A stretch of 64,000 bases of DNA. Source: an uncultured Planctomycetota bacterium (GTDB taxonomy: Bacteria > Planctomycetota > Brocadiia > CAIUPP01). This document shows, piece by piece, positions 4,239 through 58,944 of the stretch (position 1 is the stretch's first letter; the number at the start of each line of letters is the position of its first letter). The stretch spans positions 1-64,000 of the forward strand of contig CAIUPP010000021.1 of NCBI GenBank assembly GCA_903901045.1, read 5' to 3'. The notes under the pieces were generated by a model. The model was given only the letters and a program-made list of their open reading frames with translations, had not been told where the DNA came from and did not search any database. A program made the position numbers and the translations under genes.

Positions 4239-4355
4239 GGGAGTAGACGGCCCGGGATTGCCGGGGCGCGGGAGCGGCGGACGCTTCCGCGCCCCGCGCG
4301 TTTTAATGGGCAGAAGCTGTTTCACAGCCGTGGCGGGGTTACTTGCCCTGGGGCC

Positions 4356-4400
4356 GGTGGGGACACAATACTTTCCAAGGGAAAGTTTTGTGTCCCCACC
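4356..4400. terminator. 45-bp hairpin between convergent genes, copy 1
   Basis: Two 21-base arms, 4356-4376 and 4380-4400, pair with one mismatch around a three-base loop. The left arm starts GGTGGGGACACAATA and the right arm ends TTTTGTGTCCCCACC. A near-identical hairpin lies at 58828-58872. Both copies sit between convergent genes, so a bidirectional terminator or a REP-type element is likely. The flanking bases 4239-4355 and 4401-4449 hold no gene. Confidence 0.7.
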
Positions 4401-4449
4401 TCGACCCGTGCGCGCCAACCCATGCCGCCGTGAAATAAACGCGAATGCC

Positions 4450-5121: not shown

Positions 5122-5170
5122 GCATGCACCTCATCTGGAAACAGGACAGAAGCGAACCGCCACCTGGCCG

Positions 5171-5257
5171 TGGTGGAGCGCGTTGTCCTCAACGCGCTCG
5201 GAACACGCGTGGCCGGCCGTTCCGACGCAGGCGCGCTGAGGACAGCGCGCTCCACCA
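5171..5257. repeat. Large nested palindrome, 27-bp arms
   Basis: The arms 5171-5197 (TGGTGGAGCGCGTTGTCCTC...) and 5231-5257 pair over 27 bases with two mismatches. Inside, CGGAAC at 5199-5204 pairs with GTTCCG at 5219-5224. The two mismatches are C/T changes. The element lies between the stop of gmhB and the start of the rhomboid gene, both leftward, and could weaken read-through. Confidence 0.65.
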
Positions 5258-5269
5258 TTTGAACAAGCG

Positions 5270-5971
5270 TTATGACGCTGCGGACGTCAGAATAATCCGC
5301 GCGGCCTCGCGCAGGCCAACCGCTTCGAAATCGGCGGGTGTTTCGCCGTCGGCGTTGCGGCCGATGCGAATCGTGCGGCATCCGGCGGCCCGGCCCGCGC
5401 CGATGTCGCAATCGCGGTCTCCCACCATCCAGGAGCGCGCGAGGTCGAGGGCATGGTCCTCCGCCGCGCGCAGGAGCATCCCCGGCTCCGGCTTTCGGCA
5501 GCCGCAGGCGATGGCATATTGCGGCAGCGTCCCCGCCGCGTAATGCGGGCAATAGTACACCGCCGTCAGCATGATGCCGCGCGCGCCAAACCAGCTCACC
5601 ATGCAGTCATGGAAGGCGCGCAGCGACGCCTCATCGAACTTGCCGCGCGCGACGCCGGACTGGTTGGTGATGACGATAATGCGGTAGCCCGCCTTCTGGA
5701 GCAGGCGCAGTCCCTGCAGAGCGCCGGGGAGCGGCTTGAGGCGCGCGGGGTCCACGGAGAACTCGGTATCCACGATCATCGTGCCATCGCGGTCGAGGAA
5801 GACGGCCTTGCCCAGGGGCTCTCGCCCCGCGCGCGCCGTCGTTGTAGGGGCAAGGCATGCCTTGCCCGGAGACTTTCGCTCAGCGCGCGCCCTTGTTGTA
5901 GGGGCGCAGCATGCTGCGCCCTTGCGTTTGAGCCTGGGCGCGCGGTGTTTGTTGCGACCTGGCTCAGGCAA
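5270..5971 (-). CDS. gmhB: D-glycero-D-manno-heptose 1,7-bisphosphate 7-phosphatase with a repeat-derived N-terminus
   Basis: A HAD-superfamily phosphatase that removes the 7-phosphate in ADP-heptose synthesis for LPS. Motif I is FLDRDGT (Asp60, Asp62), followed by the TNQSGVARG loop, the zinc-binding set CPHYAAG...CGCRKPEPGM and the distal MVGDRDCD acidic motif. The catalytic part starts near residue 55, yet the only usable start is a TTG at 5969-5971 overlapping the gmhA stop by eight bases. Residues 1-54 have no counterpart in typical GmhB (E. coli 191 residues, here 233). They are largely encoded by two palindromic repeats: KGAACCAPT at residues 17-25 and PGKACLAPT at 35-43. No other ATG/GTG/TTG is evident between the repeats and motif I, so the extension is probably translated. 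Confidence 0.9.
   Translation of the reverse strand: MPEPGRNKHRAPRLKRKGAACCAPTTRARAERKSPGKACLAPTTTARAGREPLGKAVFLDRDGTMIVDTEFSVDPARLKPLPGALQGLRLLQKAGYRIIVITNQSGVARGKFDEASLRAFHDCMVSWFGARGIMLTAVYYCPHYAAGTLPQYAIACGCRKPEPGMLLRAAEDHALDLARSWMVGDRDCDIGAGRAAGCRTIRIGRNADGETPADFEAVGLREAARIILTSAAS
5843..5869 (-). repeat. GCATGC palindromic element inside gmhB (copy A)
   Basis: This 27-base element, core CAAGGCATGCCTTG, is read as codons 35-43 of gmhB and gives PGKACLAPT. The same variant occurs between genes at 8262-8290 and 18477-18501. The outer edges (GTAGGGG/CCCCTAC type) are partly eroded on one side here. Confidence 0.85.
5897..5923 (-). repeat. GCATGC palindromic element inside gmhB (copy B)
   Basis: This 27-base element, core CGCAGCATGCTGCG, is read as codons 17-25 of gmhB and gives KGAACCAPT. 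All 27 bases are identical to 10033-10059 inside lpxK, where the element is read in the same frame. A non-coding copy of this variant is at 14420-14444. Confidence 0.85.
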
Positions 5972-6542
5972 AGGTCCACTTCTCCACGAGTTCGCAAAGG
6001 ATGTGGCCGGCGGTGATGTGCAATTCCTGGATGCGCGCGGAAGGTTCCGCGGGGGCGACCAGGCAGAGGTCGGCCAGCGTTTTGAGGCGTCCGCCGTCGC
6101 GCCCGCTGAAGCCGAGAGTGACGGCGCCTATGCGTTTGGCCGCCTCGACGGCGTGGTTGACGTTCAGGGAATTGCCGCTGGTGCTGAAGGCGATCAGCAC
6201 GTCGCCGGGACGCACGAGCCCCTCCACCTGCCGCTCGAAGACGCGCTCGTAGGAGTAGTCGTTGGCGATGCAGGTGAGCACGGAGCTGTCGGTGGTCAGG
6301 GCGACGGCGGGAAGCGCGGCGCGCTCCTTCATGAAGCGGCCGACGAACTCCCCCGCGATGTGCTGGCAGTCGGCGGCGGAGCCCCCGTTGCCGCAGAGGT
6401 AGATGCGATGCCCCTGCTGCAGCGCCTTGTGGCAGGCGCGCGCCATTTTCTCCAGCACCGCCGGGCCGCCGGCGGCGATGAAGGCCAGCTTGGTCTCGAT
6501 GCTTTCATGCAGGCGCTGCTCAATTTCGTCCTTGGTGCTCAA
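5964..6542 (-). CDS. gmhA: Sedoheptulose-7-phosphate isomerase
   Basis: A 192-residue SIS-domain enzyme converting sedoheptulose 7-phosphate to D-glycero-D-manno-heptose 7-phosphate, the first step to the LPS inner-core heptose. Seen: the sugar-phosphate loop LCGNGGSAADCQHIAGEFVG, then SVLTCIANDY, the second loop AFSTSGNSLNV and the C-terminal metal/active-site helix with QELHITAGHILCELVE. The length matches the family. It is leftward between hldE and gmhB and overlaps gmhB by eight bases, which implies translational coupling. The ATG has GGAACGACC-type purines upstream. Bases 6543-6677 before it contain only degenerate 'GAGTACTGAATACTG' repeats. Confidence 0.95.
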   Translation of the reverse strand: MSTKDEIEQRLHESIETKLAFIAAGGPAVLEKMARACHKALQQGHRIYLCGNGGSAADCQHIAGEFVGRFMKERAALPAVALTTDSSVLTCIANDYSYERVFERQVEGLVRPGDVLIAFSTSGNSLNVNHAVEAAKRIGAVTLGFSGRDGGRLKTLADLCLVAPAEPSARIQELHITAGHILCELVEKWTFA

Positions 6543-6706: not shown

Positions 6707-8206
6707 CTAGCTCTTCCCGCCATACAACTCCAATACACGCTTGACGATGTTCGTGGTTGATGCTCCTTCGACGAACGGGGCGAGGAAGACGCGTCCGCCG
6801 TAGGCTTTGACGATATCCCAGCCGACGACCTCCTGCTCGTTGTGGTAGTCGCCCCCCTTGACGAGGACGTCGGGGCGGATCGCTTTCAGCGCGTTGACGG
6901 GGGTGTCGTCGTCATACACCACGATGCAGTCGACCACTTCGAGCGCGGCGAGGAGGCGGGCGCGCTCGACTTCGCCGGTGATGGGGCGGCTGGGGCCTTT
7001 GAGGCGGCGGACGGAGGCGTCGCTGTTGAGGCCGACGATGAGCATGTCCCCCTGCGCGCGCGCGGAGCGCAGGTACTCGTAATGGCCGATGTGGAAGATG
7101 TCGAAGCAGCCGTTGGTCCAGACCACCTTGCCGTTGCGGCGCTGGGTTTCGCGGGCGAGTTCGGCGGCATCGGCGAGGCTCTTGAGCTTGCGGTTGACCC
7201 CGGCGCCGGCGAGGAGGTCGCCGAGGATTTCTGCGCGCGAGACGGGTGCCGCGCCGATCTTGGTGACTTCGATCCCCGCGGCGACGTTGGCCAGCACCGC
7301 GGCGTCGCGCGCCGGCGCGCCGCCGGCCAGCAGCAGCGCCATGACGCTGACGACCATGTCGCCCGCGCCGGTGACGTCGTACACTTCCTTCGGGCGGGTG
7401 GGGATGGCCAGCCCCGGCTCGTCGCGGCTGAGAAGATACATCCCGTCGCGGTCCAGCGTGATGAGCGCAAAGCGCAGGTCGGCCATGGCGATCAGCTTCG
7501 CGGCTGCCTCGCGCGCCTTCTCGGGGTCGCTCGGGGCGATGCCGGTGGCCAGTTGCGTCTCGTAGCGGTTCGGGGTGATGACGGTGCTGCCGCGATAGAC
7601 CGAATACGGCCGCCCGACCTTGGGATCGGTGATGACGGGGATCCCCTGCTTGCGCGCCAGGGCGATGGTCTCAGAGAGGATGCGCTCGGTGAGCAACCCC
7701 TTGTCGTAGTCGGACAGGACGACGGCCCTCTGGCGCGGCATGAGCGCGCGGATGCGATCCAGGAGGACGTTTTCCACGTCGCGCGCAATCGGCGTGCGCG
7801 TCTCGCGGTCCACCCGCAGCATGTGCTGGATGGCGCGGTGCGCGCTCTGGACGTAACCGATGTAGCGGGTCTTGACGGAGGTGGGGCGGCCCGGGACGCG
7901 CAGGATTCCCTCTTCGGACAGGCCGAGCGCGCGCATGGATTTGACGAGCGACTCTCCCTCGCGGTCCTCCGCGCCGACCACGCCGCAGAGCGTGGGCTTG
8001 GCGTCGAGGTGCGCCAGGGCGCAGGCGACGTTCCCCGCGCCGCCGGGACGCTCTTCCTCGGAGGTGACGTCGAGGATCGGGATCGGCCCTTCGGCGGAGA
8101 TGCGGCTGGCCTGACCCCAGACGTAGCGGTCGAGCATCACATCGCCGATGACCAGAATGCTCGGGTTGCCTGCCTTCTCGATCAGTTGTGCCAGGTGGTC
8201 CGGCAT
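6707..8206 (-). CDS. hldE: Bifunctional heptose 7-phosphate kinase / heptose 1-phosphate adenylyltransferase
   Basis: A 499-residue fusion supplying the kinase and nucleotidyltransferase steps of ADP-heptose synthesis. Residues about 1-335 are a PfkB/ribokinase-fold kinase, with the GGAGNVA substrate loop near the N-terminus and the catalytic DVTGAGDMVV motif near residue 280. Residues about 358-499 are a cytidylyltransferase-fold domain with TNGCFDIFHIGH and the C-terminal GASTTNIVKR signature. The frame continues upstream through a palindromic repeat, but the ATG at 8204-8206 has AAGGAG seven bases upstream and fits the family N-terminus. The domain order is that of HldE (RfaE). It lies between the acyltransferase and gmhA. 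Confidence 0.95.
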   Translation of the reverse strand: MPDHLAQLIEKAGNPSILVIGDVMLDRYVWGQASRISAEGPIPILDVTSEEERPGGAGNVACALAHLDAKPTLCGVVGAEDREGESLVKSMRALGLSEEGILRVPGRPTSVKTRYIGYVQSAHRAIQHMLRVDRETRTPIARDVENVLLDRIRALMPRQRAVVLSDYDKGLLTERILSETIALARKQGIPVITDPKVGRPYSVYRGSTVITPNRYETQLATGIAPSDPEKAREAAAKLIAMADLRFALITLDRDGMYLLSRDEPGLAIPTRPKEVYDVTGAGDMVVSVMALLLAGGAPARDAAVLANVAAGIEVTKIGAAPVSRAEILGDLLAGAGVNRKLKSLADAAELARETQRRNGKVVWTNGCFDIFHIGHYEYLRSARAQGDMLIVGLNSDASVRRLKGPSRPITGEVERARLLAALEVVDCIVVYDDDTPVNALKAIRPDVLVKGGDYHNEQEVVGWDIVKAYGGRVFLAPFVEGASTTNIVKRVLELYGGKS

Positions 8207-8578
8207 TTGTCGCTCCTTAACCAAACCGACGGCGTTCCCATGGGGACGCCGCGCTTTTCCGCAGGGGCAAGGCATGCCTTGCCCCTACAACGGCTTTCGG
8301 GCATGCCGCGCCGGTCGTACGACGACCGCGGACTTGATAGTCCGCGCTACACGCGTCGGCACGGGCTTTAGCCTGCGGCCCCGAGCGCGCCGAGGGGATA
8401 GTCCGCGCCACACAACCATGTAGCGCGGGTTATCAAACCCGCGATATTGTGCGTTCTTTCCGTTTTCAGGGCGCAGCATCCCGCGCCGGTCGTACAACGA
8501 CCGCGGACTTGATAGTCCGCGCTACACGCGCCTGAACGGGCTTTAGACGGCGCAATTTGGACGGGCTTTAGCCCATCC
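8207..8578. repeat. Intergenic cluster of palindromic and direct repeats
   Basis: No gene here. The region contains a GCATGC palindrome (8262-8290), two 50-base direct copies at 8306-8355 and 8481-8530 differing at one base (each with CGGTCGT/ACGACCG and GCGGACTTGATAGTCCGC palindromes), a GCGGGTTATCAAACCCGC palindrome at 8424-8442 and GGGCTTTAGCC repeats near 8366 and 8562. The last overlaps the stop codon of the acyltransferase gene. The region looks like an accretion site for several REP-like families. Confidence 0.7.
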
Positions 8579-9502
8579 CTACATACGGCCCGTCGCCGCT
8601 TTCACATTCGGTACGCGCCAGCGGCGATGCATCCAGAGCCATTGCTCCGGGCAATTGCAGATGAACTTTTCCAGCCGGCGCGAAATCTCCTCGGTCACGC
8701 GGCGCACGTCCTCGTCGCGGTCGGAGCCGGGGATGACGTAGAGCGGCTCATCCAGGAACATCTCGAATCGGTACGTCCCTTCGACCCGGCAGGCGCCGCC
8801 CATGAGGATCGGCGCGCCGGTGCGCAGCGCCAGCAGCGCCGGCGCGGGGGTGGTGCTGGCGGGCCGTCCAAAGAACGGCACCCAGACGCCGTCCCCCTTG
8901 GCGTATTGATCCACCACCAGCGCAATATAGCCGTTCGCCCGGAGGGTGCGCAAGAGGGTCGGGAATGCGCCGACGCGCGGAATGATGCGCTGGCCCAGCA
9001 GGACGCGGCGGCGGCGCAGTTCGCCGTCCATCAGCGGGTTGTGCACCGGGCGGTAGACGCTGATGGGGTCCACCCCGTATTGCCTCAAGACCATGCCGAG
9101 GATCTCCCAGACCCCCAGGTGCGCGGTGACGCAGATGGCCCCCTTGCCGGCGGCGATGACCTCACGCAGGGGACGGTCGTCGCGGATGGTGACGTGGCGC
9201 GCGACGGTGGAGGGCCGGATCATCCGATGCGCCATGGCGACTTCGACGAGGGAGCGGCCGAAATGCTCGTAGACGCGCCGGGTCATCTGCGCGGCCTGCG
9301 CGGGAGTCATTTCGGGGAAGGCGGCCATGAGGTTCTCCGTGGCGGTCCTCACCTGGCCGGGGGTCCAGCGCATCACCTGCCGTCCGCCCCACTCCCCCAG
9401 CCGCAGCGCCGCCGGAAGCGGCAGCGCCTGAGCCAGGAAGAGGAACGCTTTGGTGGCCAGGTATTCGGGAAGATATTCCGGATGTGGGCGGCGTTTCCTC
9501 AC
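8579..9502 (-). CDS. Lipid A lauroyl-type acyltransferase (LpxL/HtrB family)
   Basis: A 307-residue membrane-associated acyltransferase expected to add a secondary fatty acid to lipid A. The catalytic H(x4)E is seen in TAHLGVWEILG, followed by YRPVHNPLMD, VVDQYAKGDGVWVPFFGRPA and the C-terminal PEQWLWMHRRWR, all typical of the LpxL/LpxM family. I place the start at the GTG at 9500-9502, which overlaps the lpxK stop as GTGA; longer reading would run inside lpxK. The stop TAG at 8579-8581 lies within the edge of a GGGCTTTAGCC-type palindromic repeat, so the repeat has set the C-terminus (ends GRM). Confidence 0.88.
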   Translation of the reverse strand: MRKRRPHPEYLPEYLATKAFLFLAQALPLPAALRLGEWGGRQVMRWTPGQVRTATENLMAAFPEMTPAQAAQMTRRVYEHFGRSLVEVAMAHRMIRPSTVARHVTIRDDRPLREVIAAGKGAICVTAHLGVWEILGMVLRQYGVDPISVYRPVHNPLMDGELRRRRVLLGQRIIPRVGAFPTLLRTLRANGYIALVVDQYAKGDGVWVPFFGRPASTTPAPALLALRTGAPILMGGACRVEGTYRFEMFLDEPLYVIPGSDRDEDVRRVTEEISRRLEKFICNCPEQWLWMHRRWRVPNVKAATGRM

Positions 9503-10806
9503 GCGACTGCCCCTTTCAGCATGGCGTCCAGCGTCTCCTCGCCGGAGAGTATGGCCATTTCGACGCGGAGGAATCTGGTTCGATTGAGCAGGGCGGCGGC
9601 GCGGGGGGAGAGGGATGGTGCGGGGTCGTTGAAGGAGCCCTGGCCGGGTGCTGCACTCGGCCTCGGTTGATCGGAAGATGATGTGGCACAGCCGCCCTCG
9701 CCTGTGCGTGAACAGCCGAGGGCGGCTGTTCCACACTTCAAAAGCCCTGCCTTCATGAACGCCACCAGCTTGACGGCGTCCTTCTCGGTCGTCACCGCCC
9801 ACTCGGCGCCGGAGTTCTCCAGGAGCGCCGCGAGCCGGTCCAGGTCGGGCGCGCTGTAGTGGAAATGGTCCGGTAGGGATTGCGACGCGACCACCTCCGC
9901 CTTGAGCCGCCGAACGGTTTCCAGAAATCCCTGCGGGTTGCCGATGCCGCAGAAGAGCATCACGCGCTTGCCGGCGAGGGCGTTGAGGGAATCGGCGTGC
10001 TTGAGCGCGCCGCCACACGTCTTGTCCCCGACTGTAGGGGCGCAGCATGCTGCGCCCTTAGAACCATGAGCGGCTTCCTCGGCGCGCAACTCCAAGAGCG
10101 TGGTCGCGCGGTGCGCCGCTGTGATAATGGGAATATTGGGGGCCAGCGCCGCGATTTCGGCGCGGCGCTCGGCGAGCGTGGCGGCGTCCAGCAAATCCGT
10201 GCGAGTGAGGATGATGGCATCCGCCCGGCGCAGGGCGGAAAGCGGCTCGCGCAGGTCGCCGGCGGGTATGATGCGGCGTCCGAGCAATGGCTTCAGCGCA
10301 TCCACAAGCACGAGGTCGAGGTTCCGGCGGGCGCGCAGGTGCTGGAATCCGTCATCGAGGACGAGGCAGTCCGCTCCTTCGGCGAGGGCGCGACTCGCCG
10401 AGGCGACGCGGTTCGGATCGGCGTAGTGGGGAATGCCGGGGAGCCGGCGCTCGAAAAGCAGCGCCTCGTCATTCCTGGGGCGGCCCTGCGCCCGCTCGTG
10501 CGCGCCGTAGCCGCGGCTGAGGATGGCGGGATGCCGCCCCATCTGCGCGAGGCGGCGGACGACCCACTCGACCATCGGGGTCTTGCCGGTGCCGCCCGCG
10601 CTGAGGTTGCCGACGCTGATGACGGGCACGGCCAGGTCGCGGCTGGGAAGAATCCCTTTGCGATACGCCGCGCGCCGGAGCCGCATGGCCGCGCCGTACG
10701 CGAGGCCGAACGGGCTGAGGGCGCAGCGCAGCCACCGGGCGCCCGCGCAGCGGGTGTCCTCCCTCAGGAACCGAACGCAACAGCCGCGGGAGTCATGGGA
10801 TAGCAT
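9499..10806 (-). CDS. lpxK: Tetraacyldisaccharide 4'-kinase with two repeat-derived insertions
   Basis: LpxK phosphorylates the 4' position of the lipid A disaccharide at the inner membrane. Seen: N-terminal hydrophobic region, SVGNLSAGGTGKTP (P-loop, residues 71-76), SRGYG, LDDGFQH, FCGIGNP, DHFHY and VTTEKDAVKL. The protein is 435 residues against about 330 in E. coli. The excess falls in two places: residues about 248-272 (containing KGAACCAPT, from the palindrome at 10033-10059) and residues about 352-395 (from the palindrome at 9682-9735 plus flank). The reading frame stays open through both, so the gene is probably functional. The N-terminal start (ATG 10804-10806) lacks a clear Shine-Dalgarno and is uncertain. 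Confidence 0.92.
   Translation of the reverse strand: MLSHDSRGCCVRFLREDTRCAGARWLRCALSPFGLAYGAAMRLRRAAYRKGILPSRDLAVPVISVGNLSAGGTGKTPMVEWVVRRLAQMGRHPAILSRGYGAHERAQGRPRNDEALLFERRLPGIPHYADPNRVASASRALAEGADCLVLDDGFQHLRARRNLDLVLVDALKPLLGRRIIPAGDLREPLSALRRADAIILTRTDLLDAATLAERRAEIAALAPNIPIITAAHRATTLLELRAEEAAHGSKGAACCAPTVGDKTCGGALKHADSLNALAGKRVMLFCGIGNPQGFLETVRRLKAEVVASQSLPDHFHYSAPDLDRLAALLENSGAEWAVTTEKDAVKLVAFMKAGLLKCGTAALGCSRTGEGGCATSSSDQPRPSAAPGQGSFNDPAPSLSPRAAALLNRTRFLRVEMAILSGEETLDAMLKGAVA
9682..9735 (-). repeat. Second palindrome type inside lpxK
   Basis: Arms 9682-9700 (TGTGGCACAGCCGCCCTCG) and 9717-9735 pair over 19 bases with one mismatch. The element belongs to a different family from the GCATGC repeats. 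It is translated in lpxK near residues 357-375 (CGTAALGCSRTGEGGCAT), between the conserved TTEKDAVKL and RTRFLRVEM segments. Confidence 0.75.
10033..10059 (-). repeat. GCATGC palindromic element inside lpxK
   Basis: All 27 bases match 5897-5923 of gmhB. It is read in the same frame, giving KGAACCAPT at about residues 250-258 of LpxK, between LLELRAEEAA and LAGKRVMLFCG. Confidence 0.85.
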
Positions 10807-14217: not shown

Positions 14218-14486
14218 GTCTGACCGGGGCGCGCGCCTTGGAGTGCGGCGGCATCGACGCCGCTTTGGCTTGGCGGGAGGGCATGCGCGGAGGAGGGGGC
14301 AGCCCGCCTGTGCTGCCATTCCTCGCGCGAGGCAAAGCGCCGCCAGGGGCGGCGCAGTCCAAAGGTCCCGGTTTCCCTCCTAGCACCGGGCGGGTAGAAT
14401 GGGACTCGGCGTATCCCGGGTAGGGGCGCAGCATGCTGCGCCCTGGCGTTCCCTGGCCTGACGCACTCTCTTAACTTGAGGCGGAA
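14218..14486. repeat. Intergenic repeats, including a GCATGC palindrome at 14420-14444
   Basis: The GCATGC element at 14420-14444 (core CGCAGCATGCTGCG) is the non-coding relative of the copies in gmhB and lpxK. Upstream, near 14237-14366, a TTGGAGTGCGGCGGC segment faces an imperfect complement GGCGGCGCAGTCCAAAG, and a GCGCCGCC/GGCGGCGC hairpin lies between. No gene is seen. Confidence 0.6.
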
Positions 14487-18476: not shown

Positions 18477-18578
18477 GGGGCAAGGCATGCCTTGCCCCTA
18501 CGATGGCTCGCGGGCTAAAGCCCGCGCTACACAGACGGCAAGCGTGCGACGAGTCGCGGGCTGAAGCCCGCGCTACAT
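18477..18578. repeat. Three palindromic repeats between nrdD and the glutaredoxin gene
   Basis: 18477-18501 is a GCATGC element (core CAAGGCATGCCTTG). 18510-18525 (CGGGCTAAAGCCCG) and 18555-18573 (CGCGGGCTGAAGCCCGCG) belong to the GGGCTAAAGCCC family, which also occurs near 8366 and 8562. They split an otherwise tight nrd operon and could lower expression of the downstream genes. Confidence 0.65.
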
Positions 18579-58794: not shown

Positions 58795-58827
58795 TCCGTC
58801 CGGCCGAGTTGGGGCTGGTGGGGGGCT

Positions 58828-58872
58828 GGTGGGGACACAATACTTTCCAAAGGAAAGTTTTGTGTCCCCACC
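58828..58872. terminator. 45-bp hairpin between convergent genes, copy 2
   Basis: Two 21-base arms (58828-58848 and 58852-58872) with the same single mismatch as copy 1 at 4356-4400, differing from it only in the AAA loop (AAG in copy 1). It lies between the rightward kinase gene and the leftward UroD-like gene. Confidence 0.72.
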
Positions 58873-58944
58873 TCGGCCCATAAGTCACTGCAACCTAACG
58901 AGGTATGAAACAGCCTCCAGCAACGTCCGTCCGCGCCCGTGCGG

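Follow-up and report, generated by a model that had tools for sequence, protein, structure and literature searches.

Known cases of palindromic repeats within genes

REP elements with a GTAG tag are palindromic stem-loops of 20-40 bp that carry an unpaired GTAG at one end. They are non-autonomous, and a Y1/HUH transposase of the TnpAREP (RAYT) family is believed to mobilise them in single-stranded form. According to the accessible text of Di Nocera et al. (2013; PMC3733652), the members of the GTAG superfamily combine a short palindrome with a one-sided GTAG, are present in high copy number and lie mostly between genes, with some copies in frame within genes. The same text reports GTAG REPs within the ORFs of several species, most of all Opitutus terrae, the in-frame cases outside Rickettsia including Opitutus and Thauera, and lists genes for DNA repair, DNA ligase and pseudouridine synthases among their targets. 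It also cautions that many N-terminal REPs are probably non-coding, and it assigns a CGTC tag to the intragenic Rickettsia repeats RPE-4 and RPE-6. REPs have further been described inside tnpAREP genes of subclass 2.4, where the frame is unbroken and the repeat generally falls between HuH and Y (Quentin et al. 2018; PMC6006769, in its accessible text).

Judging from these parts of the two papers, the behaviour of translated REPs is already in print, for in-frame intragenic copies since 2013 and for copies inside TnpAREP genes since 2018, and the gmhB gene analyzed here is a well-supported further case. What is new is an N-terminal insert that, on the comparison of related sequences presented below, appears to meet the 2013 caution through the conservation of the start codon ahead of it and the empty site of a relative, together with a host genome that is rich in the REP and is without its typical transposase.

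Two GTAG-type REPs at the gmhA-gmhB junction

The window, that is, the whole stretch of 64,000 nucleotides that was analyzed, contains on its minus strand the gene gmhA (5964-6542, SIS domain), the TGA stop of which overlaps the TTG start of gmhB (5270-5971, minus strand, 233 amino acids) within TTGCCTGA (5964-5971). The product of gmhB belongs to the D,D-heptose 1,7-bisphosphate phosphatase family (top PDB match 3l8e, E 7e-34), and matches in Pfam, NCBIfam and PDB concordantly place its GmhB/HAD-IIIA phosphatase domain from about residue 55 onwards. The DxD and CPH..CGC sequences of this domain, which we take to be catalytic and metal-binding, are intact. A search of viral sequences for relatives of GmhB returned none.

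In all, 54 residues precede the HAD motif KAVFLDRDGT, and they include the peptides KGAACCAPT (residues 17-25) and PGKACLAPT (residues 35-43), which our reading of the minus strand confirms to be encoded, as the initial annotation had proposed, by two repeats lying in frame between the coupled TTG start and the HAD motif. These repeats had been described as palindromes of 27 bases; they are real and in frame, and the perfect palindrome of each spans 20 bp (about 24-27 with the tag), namely GGGCAAGGCATGCCTTGCCC at 5848-5867 and GGGCGCAGCATGCTGCGCCC at 5902-5921, with TTGTAG directly before both. Counted as GTAG plus the 20-bp palindrome, the elements occupy 5844-5867 (AAG subtype, encoding GKACLAPT) and 5898-5921 (GCA subtype, encoding GAACCAPT) of the plus strand, antisense to gmhB.

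The palindromes are GTAG-type REP elements of a large family. In the host genome, which consists of 154 contigs, TGTAG followed by GGGCnnnGCATGCnnnGCCC has 120 exact copies distributed over many contigs, and the reversed control has none; the window itself contains 12 matches with up to three mismatches vs 0.14 expected, most sites matching on both strands. Further copies lie in the window at 14420-14443 (plus strand) and 18478-18501 (minus strand). Of the 120 exact copies, 100 were located individually. For a closer comparison we extracted 129 REP cores, copies without the full tag included, from 61 regions totalling 467,371 bases. The GCA subtype accounts for 66 of these cores and the AAG subtype for 56; GTAG is found at exactly one end in 116 of them, at both ends in two and at neither end in 11.

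The suggested parallel with the Rickettsia palindromic elements holds for position, palindromic elements lying in frame within genes in both cases (genes of functional proteins in Rickettsia, of putatively functional ones here), and is not supported for kinship. The accessible text of Di Nocera et al. (2013) gives the Rickettsia repeats a CGTC tag or longer elements; the tag found here is GTAG, and identity with a Rickettsia element is therefore rejected. That text, as noted above, also places in-frame REPs outside Rickettsia. The stem GGGCnnnGCATGCnnnGCCC, with its GCATGC, was not found in the same text, its figure of family consensuses aside, and a literature search with the exact string of the repeat gave no relevant paper among the matches listed.

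The gmhB locus of a relative that lacks the insert

The decisive comparison is with genome G001. Among the relatives searched, it is the sole other member of the same family, and its gmhA-gmhB locus (L091) has an identical overlap of the gmhA stop with the gmhB start, TTGCCTGA. Its gmhB begins with MPESPLR followed by KAVFLD, seven residues ahead of the motif, vs the 54 of the window gene, which begins with MPE, continues with about 47 extra codons and reaches KAVFLD through EPLG. Given the same overlap and this difference in length, about 141 nt (47 codons; 5822-5962, minus strand, with junctions uncertain by about one codon) were inserted downstream of the conserved TTG without any frameshift. 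The insert is known from one genome and the relatives compared belong to other genera. If G001 is taken as the ancestral state, the shared overlap implies that the start codon of gmhB predates the insert. An empty site at the DNA level behind a conserved start is what this case adds to the GTAG REP superfamily as characterized in the accessible text of Di Nocera et al. (2013).

Of the 47 extra residues, the two REP-encoded peptides contribute 18. Contrary to what had been supposed, the repeats therefore do not explain most of the additional length of GmhB; the other 29 residues derive from sequence without a second copy in the genome regions examined. Within the first 60 codons of gmhB, ATG, GTG or TTG occurs only at codon 1, the next ATG (in DGTM) being situated in the HAD motif. 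The sole alternative start between the repeats and this motif is thus a non-canonical one, CTG codon 53 (5813-5815, minus strand), which aligns with the internal CTG codon 6 of the gmhB of G001. As far as sequence can tell, both signs that the initial annotation had named as speaking against its proposal are absent: no canonical start separates the repeats from the catalytic motif, and the comparison with G001 shows no shift of frame.

We consider it highly likely that two GTAG REPs were inserted 3' of the gmhB TTG and are translated within an N-terminal extension of 47 residues. Both would have arrived together with the unique spacer, immediately 3' of the TTG that overlaps the gmhA stop. Because the net insertion has a length divisible by three and contains no stop codon, ribosomes initiating at the old TTG would read through both REPs before reaching the intact HAD domain. 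The insert is in frame, lies downstream of the ancestral start codon and is very probably translated.

In-frame copies in other conserved genes

Of the 129 REPs of the 61 regions, 17 lie in frame in 13 Pfam-supported genes, gmhB and 12 further conserved genes. The full series comprises GmhB, LpxK, LigA, MnmA, MutL, MutY, an AddB-like protein, a RluD-like protein, OppC, TIGR02757, a Ddl-like protein and two PMT proteins. Candidate ORFs that had no Pfam support were left out of the 17; in one set of six that was scanned they numbered five, of which one is glycosyltransferase-like by eye.

The REP-encoded segments of LigA (L161:9744-12086), MnmA and LpxK are absent from the orthologues of all five relatives aligned (G001, G003, G004, G016 and G085), and the flanks align on both sides. 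The REPs of these three lie inside conserved protein, and reading through them is therefore unavoidable. The LigA insert is a pair of REPs in opposite orientations. In LpxK, encoded within the window at 9499-10806 (minus strand), a REP of the GCA subtype (10034-10057, plus strand) specifies the same peptide KGAACCAPT that occurs in GmhB. LpxK has by eye a second extra stretch, of low complexity, near its C-terminus (around residues 365-400). The copies in MutL (L176:1920-3875) and MutY (L143:1903-3180) fall in interdomain linkers, and another lies in the AddB-like protein (L148:1675-5100). With LigA, these make four of the 13 REP-bearing genes that function in DNA repair or replication, and a bias of in-frame REPs towards DNA-repair genes, of the sort noted in 2013 for other species, is possible.

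REP peptides are read in several frames and belong to unrelated proteins. The sense phase 0 of the core, in which the tag supplies TAG, is used by none of the 17 in-frame copies; the antisense phase 0, in which the frame is open, is used by none of nine, a count too small to interpret. We also searched the 126 non-edge copies for genes broken by an out-of-frame REP, whose two flanks should look coding (score >=0.2) on the same strand but not in the same frame, and found none, same-frame cases that pass the same cut being only six. The frame caller was correct in 247 of 360 control windows, and the power of this search is limited for that reason. Intragenic REPs of the host may persist only where they are in frame and in termini, linkers or loops, the others having presumably been removed by selection.

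Alternative readings of the gmhB insert

The REPs could instead form an untranslated intercistronic spacer, with GmhB starting at CTG codon 53 and the hairpins tuning or protecting the gmhA-gmhB message. This codon sits where GmhB usually begins and would yield a protein of normal length; moreover, the mRNA across the insert has strong predicted folding (z -3.3), and, in the accessible text of PMC3733652, REPs close to a 5' end often do not code. However, in G001 the same CTG is an internal codon preceded by the TTG, and an untranslated spacer requires neither a stop-free frame nor a length divisible by three, a coincidence that a rough estimate puts at about 1 in 12. The REPs within LigA, MnmA and LpxK, besides, indicate that REPs are translated in the host genome, and we regard such a spacer as unlikely.

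Recruitment of the extension to some role in GmhB, such as regulation, binding or targeting, would fit the fact that a conserved LPS gene has kept it in frame, but the occurrence of REP peptides in unrelated proteins and several frames is what tolerated inserts are expected to show, and most of the extension (29 of 47 residues) is not REP-encoded, which makes recruitment very improbable; the segment may well be neutral. An artefact of assembly or binning, for which one could invoke the 154 contigs and many short repeats of the genome, is hardly credible, considering that the spacer is unique, that the overlapping gene order is intact on both sides, that the two REPs are short and of different subtypes, and that independent in-frame REPs occur in 12 other genes. 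Insertion of translated REPs behind the old TTG thus remains the preferred reading. It would provide a clean example of mobile DNA turned into protein sequence, in which start codon, empty site and in-frame insert are visible together and the same element can be traced in LigA, LpxK and other core enzymes. It becomes testable in this way how frequently, outside Rickettsia, proteins gain tolerated or useful segments from selfish repeats.

Distribution of the REP and its transposase

The exact 27-mer GTTGTAGGGGCGCAGCATGCTGCGCCC occurs in 53 sequence stretches attributed by their record labels to many phyla, and the REP pattern is present in 10 genomes among 147 relatives, the host counted. A scan of viral contigs found 10 stretches with the REP. 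G085, which belongs to another family, has 95 pattern matches (most of the listed places are double-footed and counted on both strands), and G001 has no exact copy; this patchy distribution suggests horizontal spread.

Two transposase genes, one of a gemmatimonadete (L069) and one of G025 (L183), contain a REP in frame directly after the HUH motif; this REP is identical to that of the host in L069 and near-identical in L183. In L064 the REP falls within the open frame but ahead of the point where the transposase gene probably starts. All six members of the alignment of these transposases, called A1, match the NCBIfam model of REP-associated tyrosine transposase. The A1-type set consists of 25 intact ORFs from 32 loci, the other seven having no intact ORF by the motif test. 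In 19 of the 25, which come from relatives and L069 and not from the host genome, a GTAG hairpin follows HUH and precedes the next conserved motif; codon shuffles gave 0.05 such cases on average. A1-type genes (L254-L283) have their own REP stem translated after HUH (VGAGLRPA, VGAIHELPLQ, RGGSRTAPT and others). These genes resemble TnpAREP subclass 2.4 as described in the accessible text of Quentin et al. (2018), and are likened to it by their GTAGGGGC-type REPs, single- or double-footed, which in L069, L183 and many relatives occupy an in-frame position between HuH and Y. A strong A1-type match was found in nine of the 10 REP-bearing genomes vs 43 of the 137 without the REP (Fisher p 0.0004, phylogeny ignored).

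Unlike these genomes, the host has the REPs without a close TnpAREP of that type: the search for a close relative of the REP-bearing TnpAREP gave a best match with E 3.4e-7 only, and no GCATGC REP lies near any of its six Y1 matches within the loci examined. Two of the six, the RAYT-like genes on contigs C7 and C139, have a different REP family close by (GTGGCGCGGACTATCC.. and GTAGCGCGGGCTTTAGCC..) and are for that reason not linked to movement of the GCATGC REP. Mobilisation in this lineage may have been due to a TnpAREP since lost, or missing from the assembly. A more ambitious proposal would be that a transposase-carried, translation-ready REP lineage invaded a host without the transposase and supplies linker peptides to at least a dozen core enzymes, preferentially those of DNA repair and RNA modification, some of these peptides, including that of GmhB, being functional; we find this distinctly doubtful.

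hldE and other repeats of the window

One further REP, of the AAG subtype (8265-8288, minus strand), lies at the predicted 5' end of hldE (6707-8288), its GCATGC supplying the ATG. The situation is the reverse of that in gmhB: this REP-derived start is followed, 23 codons on, by another ATG, so that the hldE REP need not be translated, and the true start is likely ATG codon 24. Gene callers place starts inside REPs and will over-extend genes such as hldE.

Several copies of another REP family (GTAGCGCGGACTATCAAGTCCGCG, minus strand) occupy 8301-8552, and near-identical hairpins adjoin the RAYT-like genes on C7 and C139 (L035, L036). Between gmhB and the next gene, the region 5165-5260 contains a GTGG-tagged inverted pair (GTGGTGGAGCGCG...) that resembles a further REP pair. 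A palindrome-like unit of 58 nt, GGTGGGGACACAATACTTTCC..GTGTCCCCACC, is present at 4350-4407 and again at 58822-58879, with 95% identity between the two copies.
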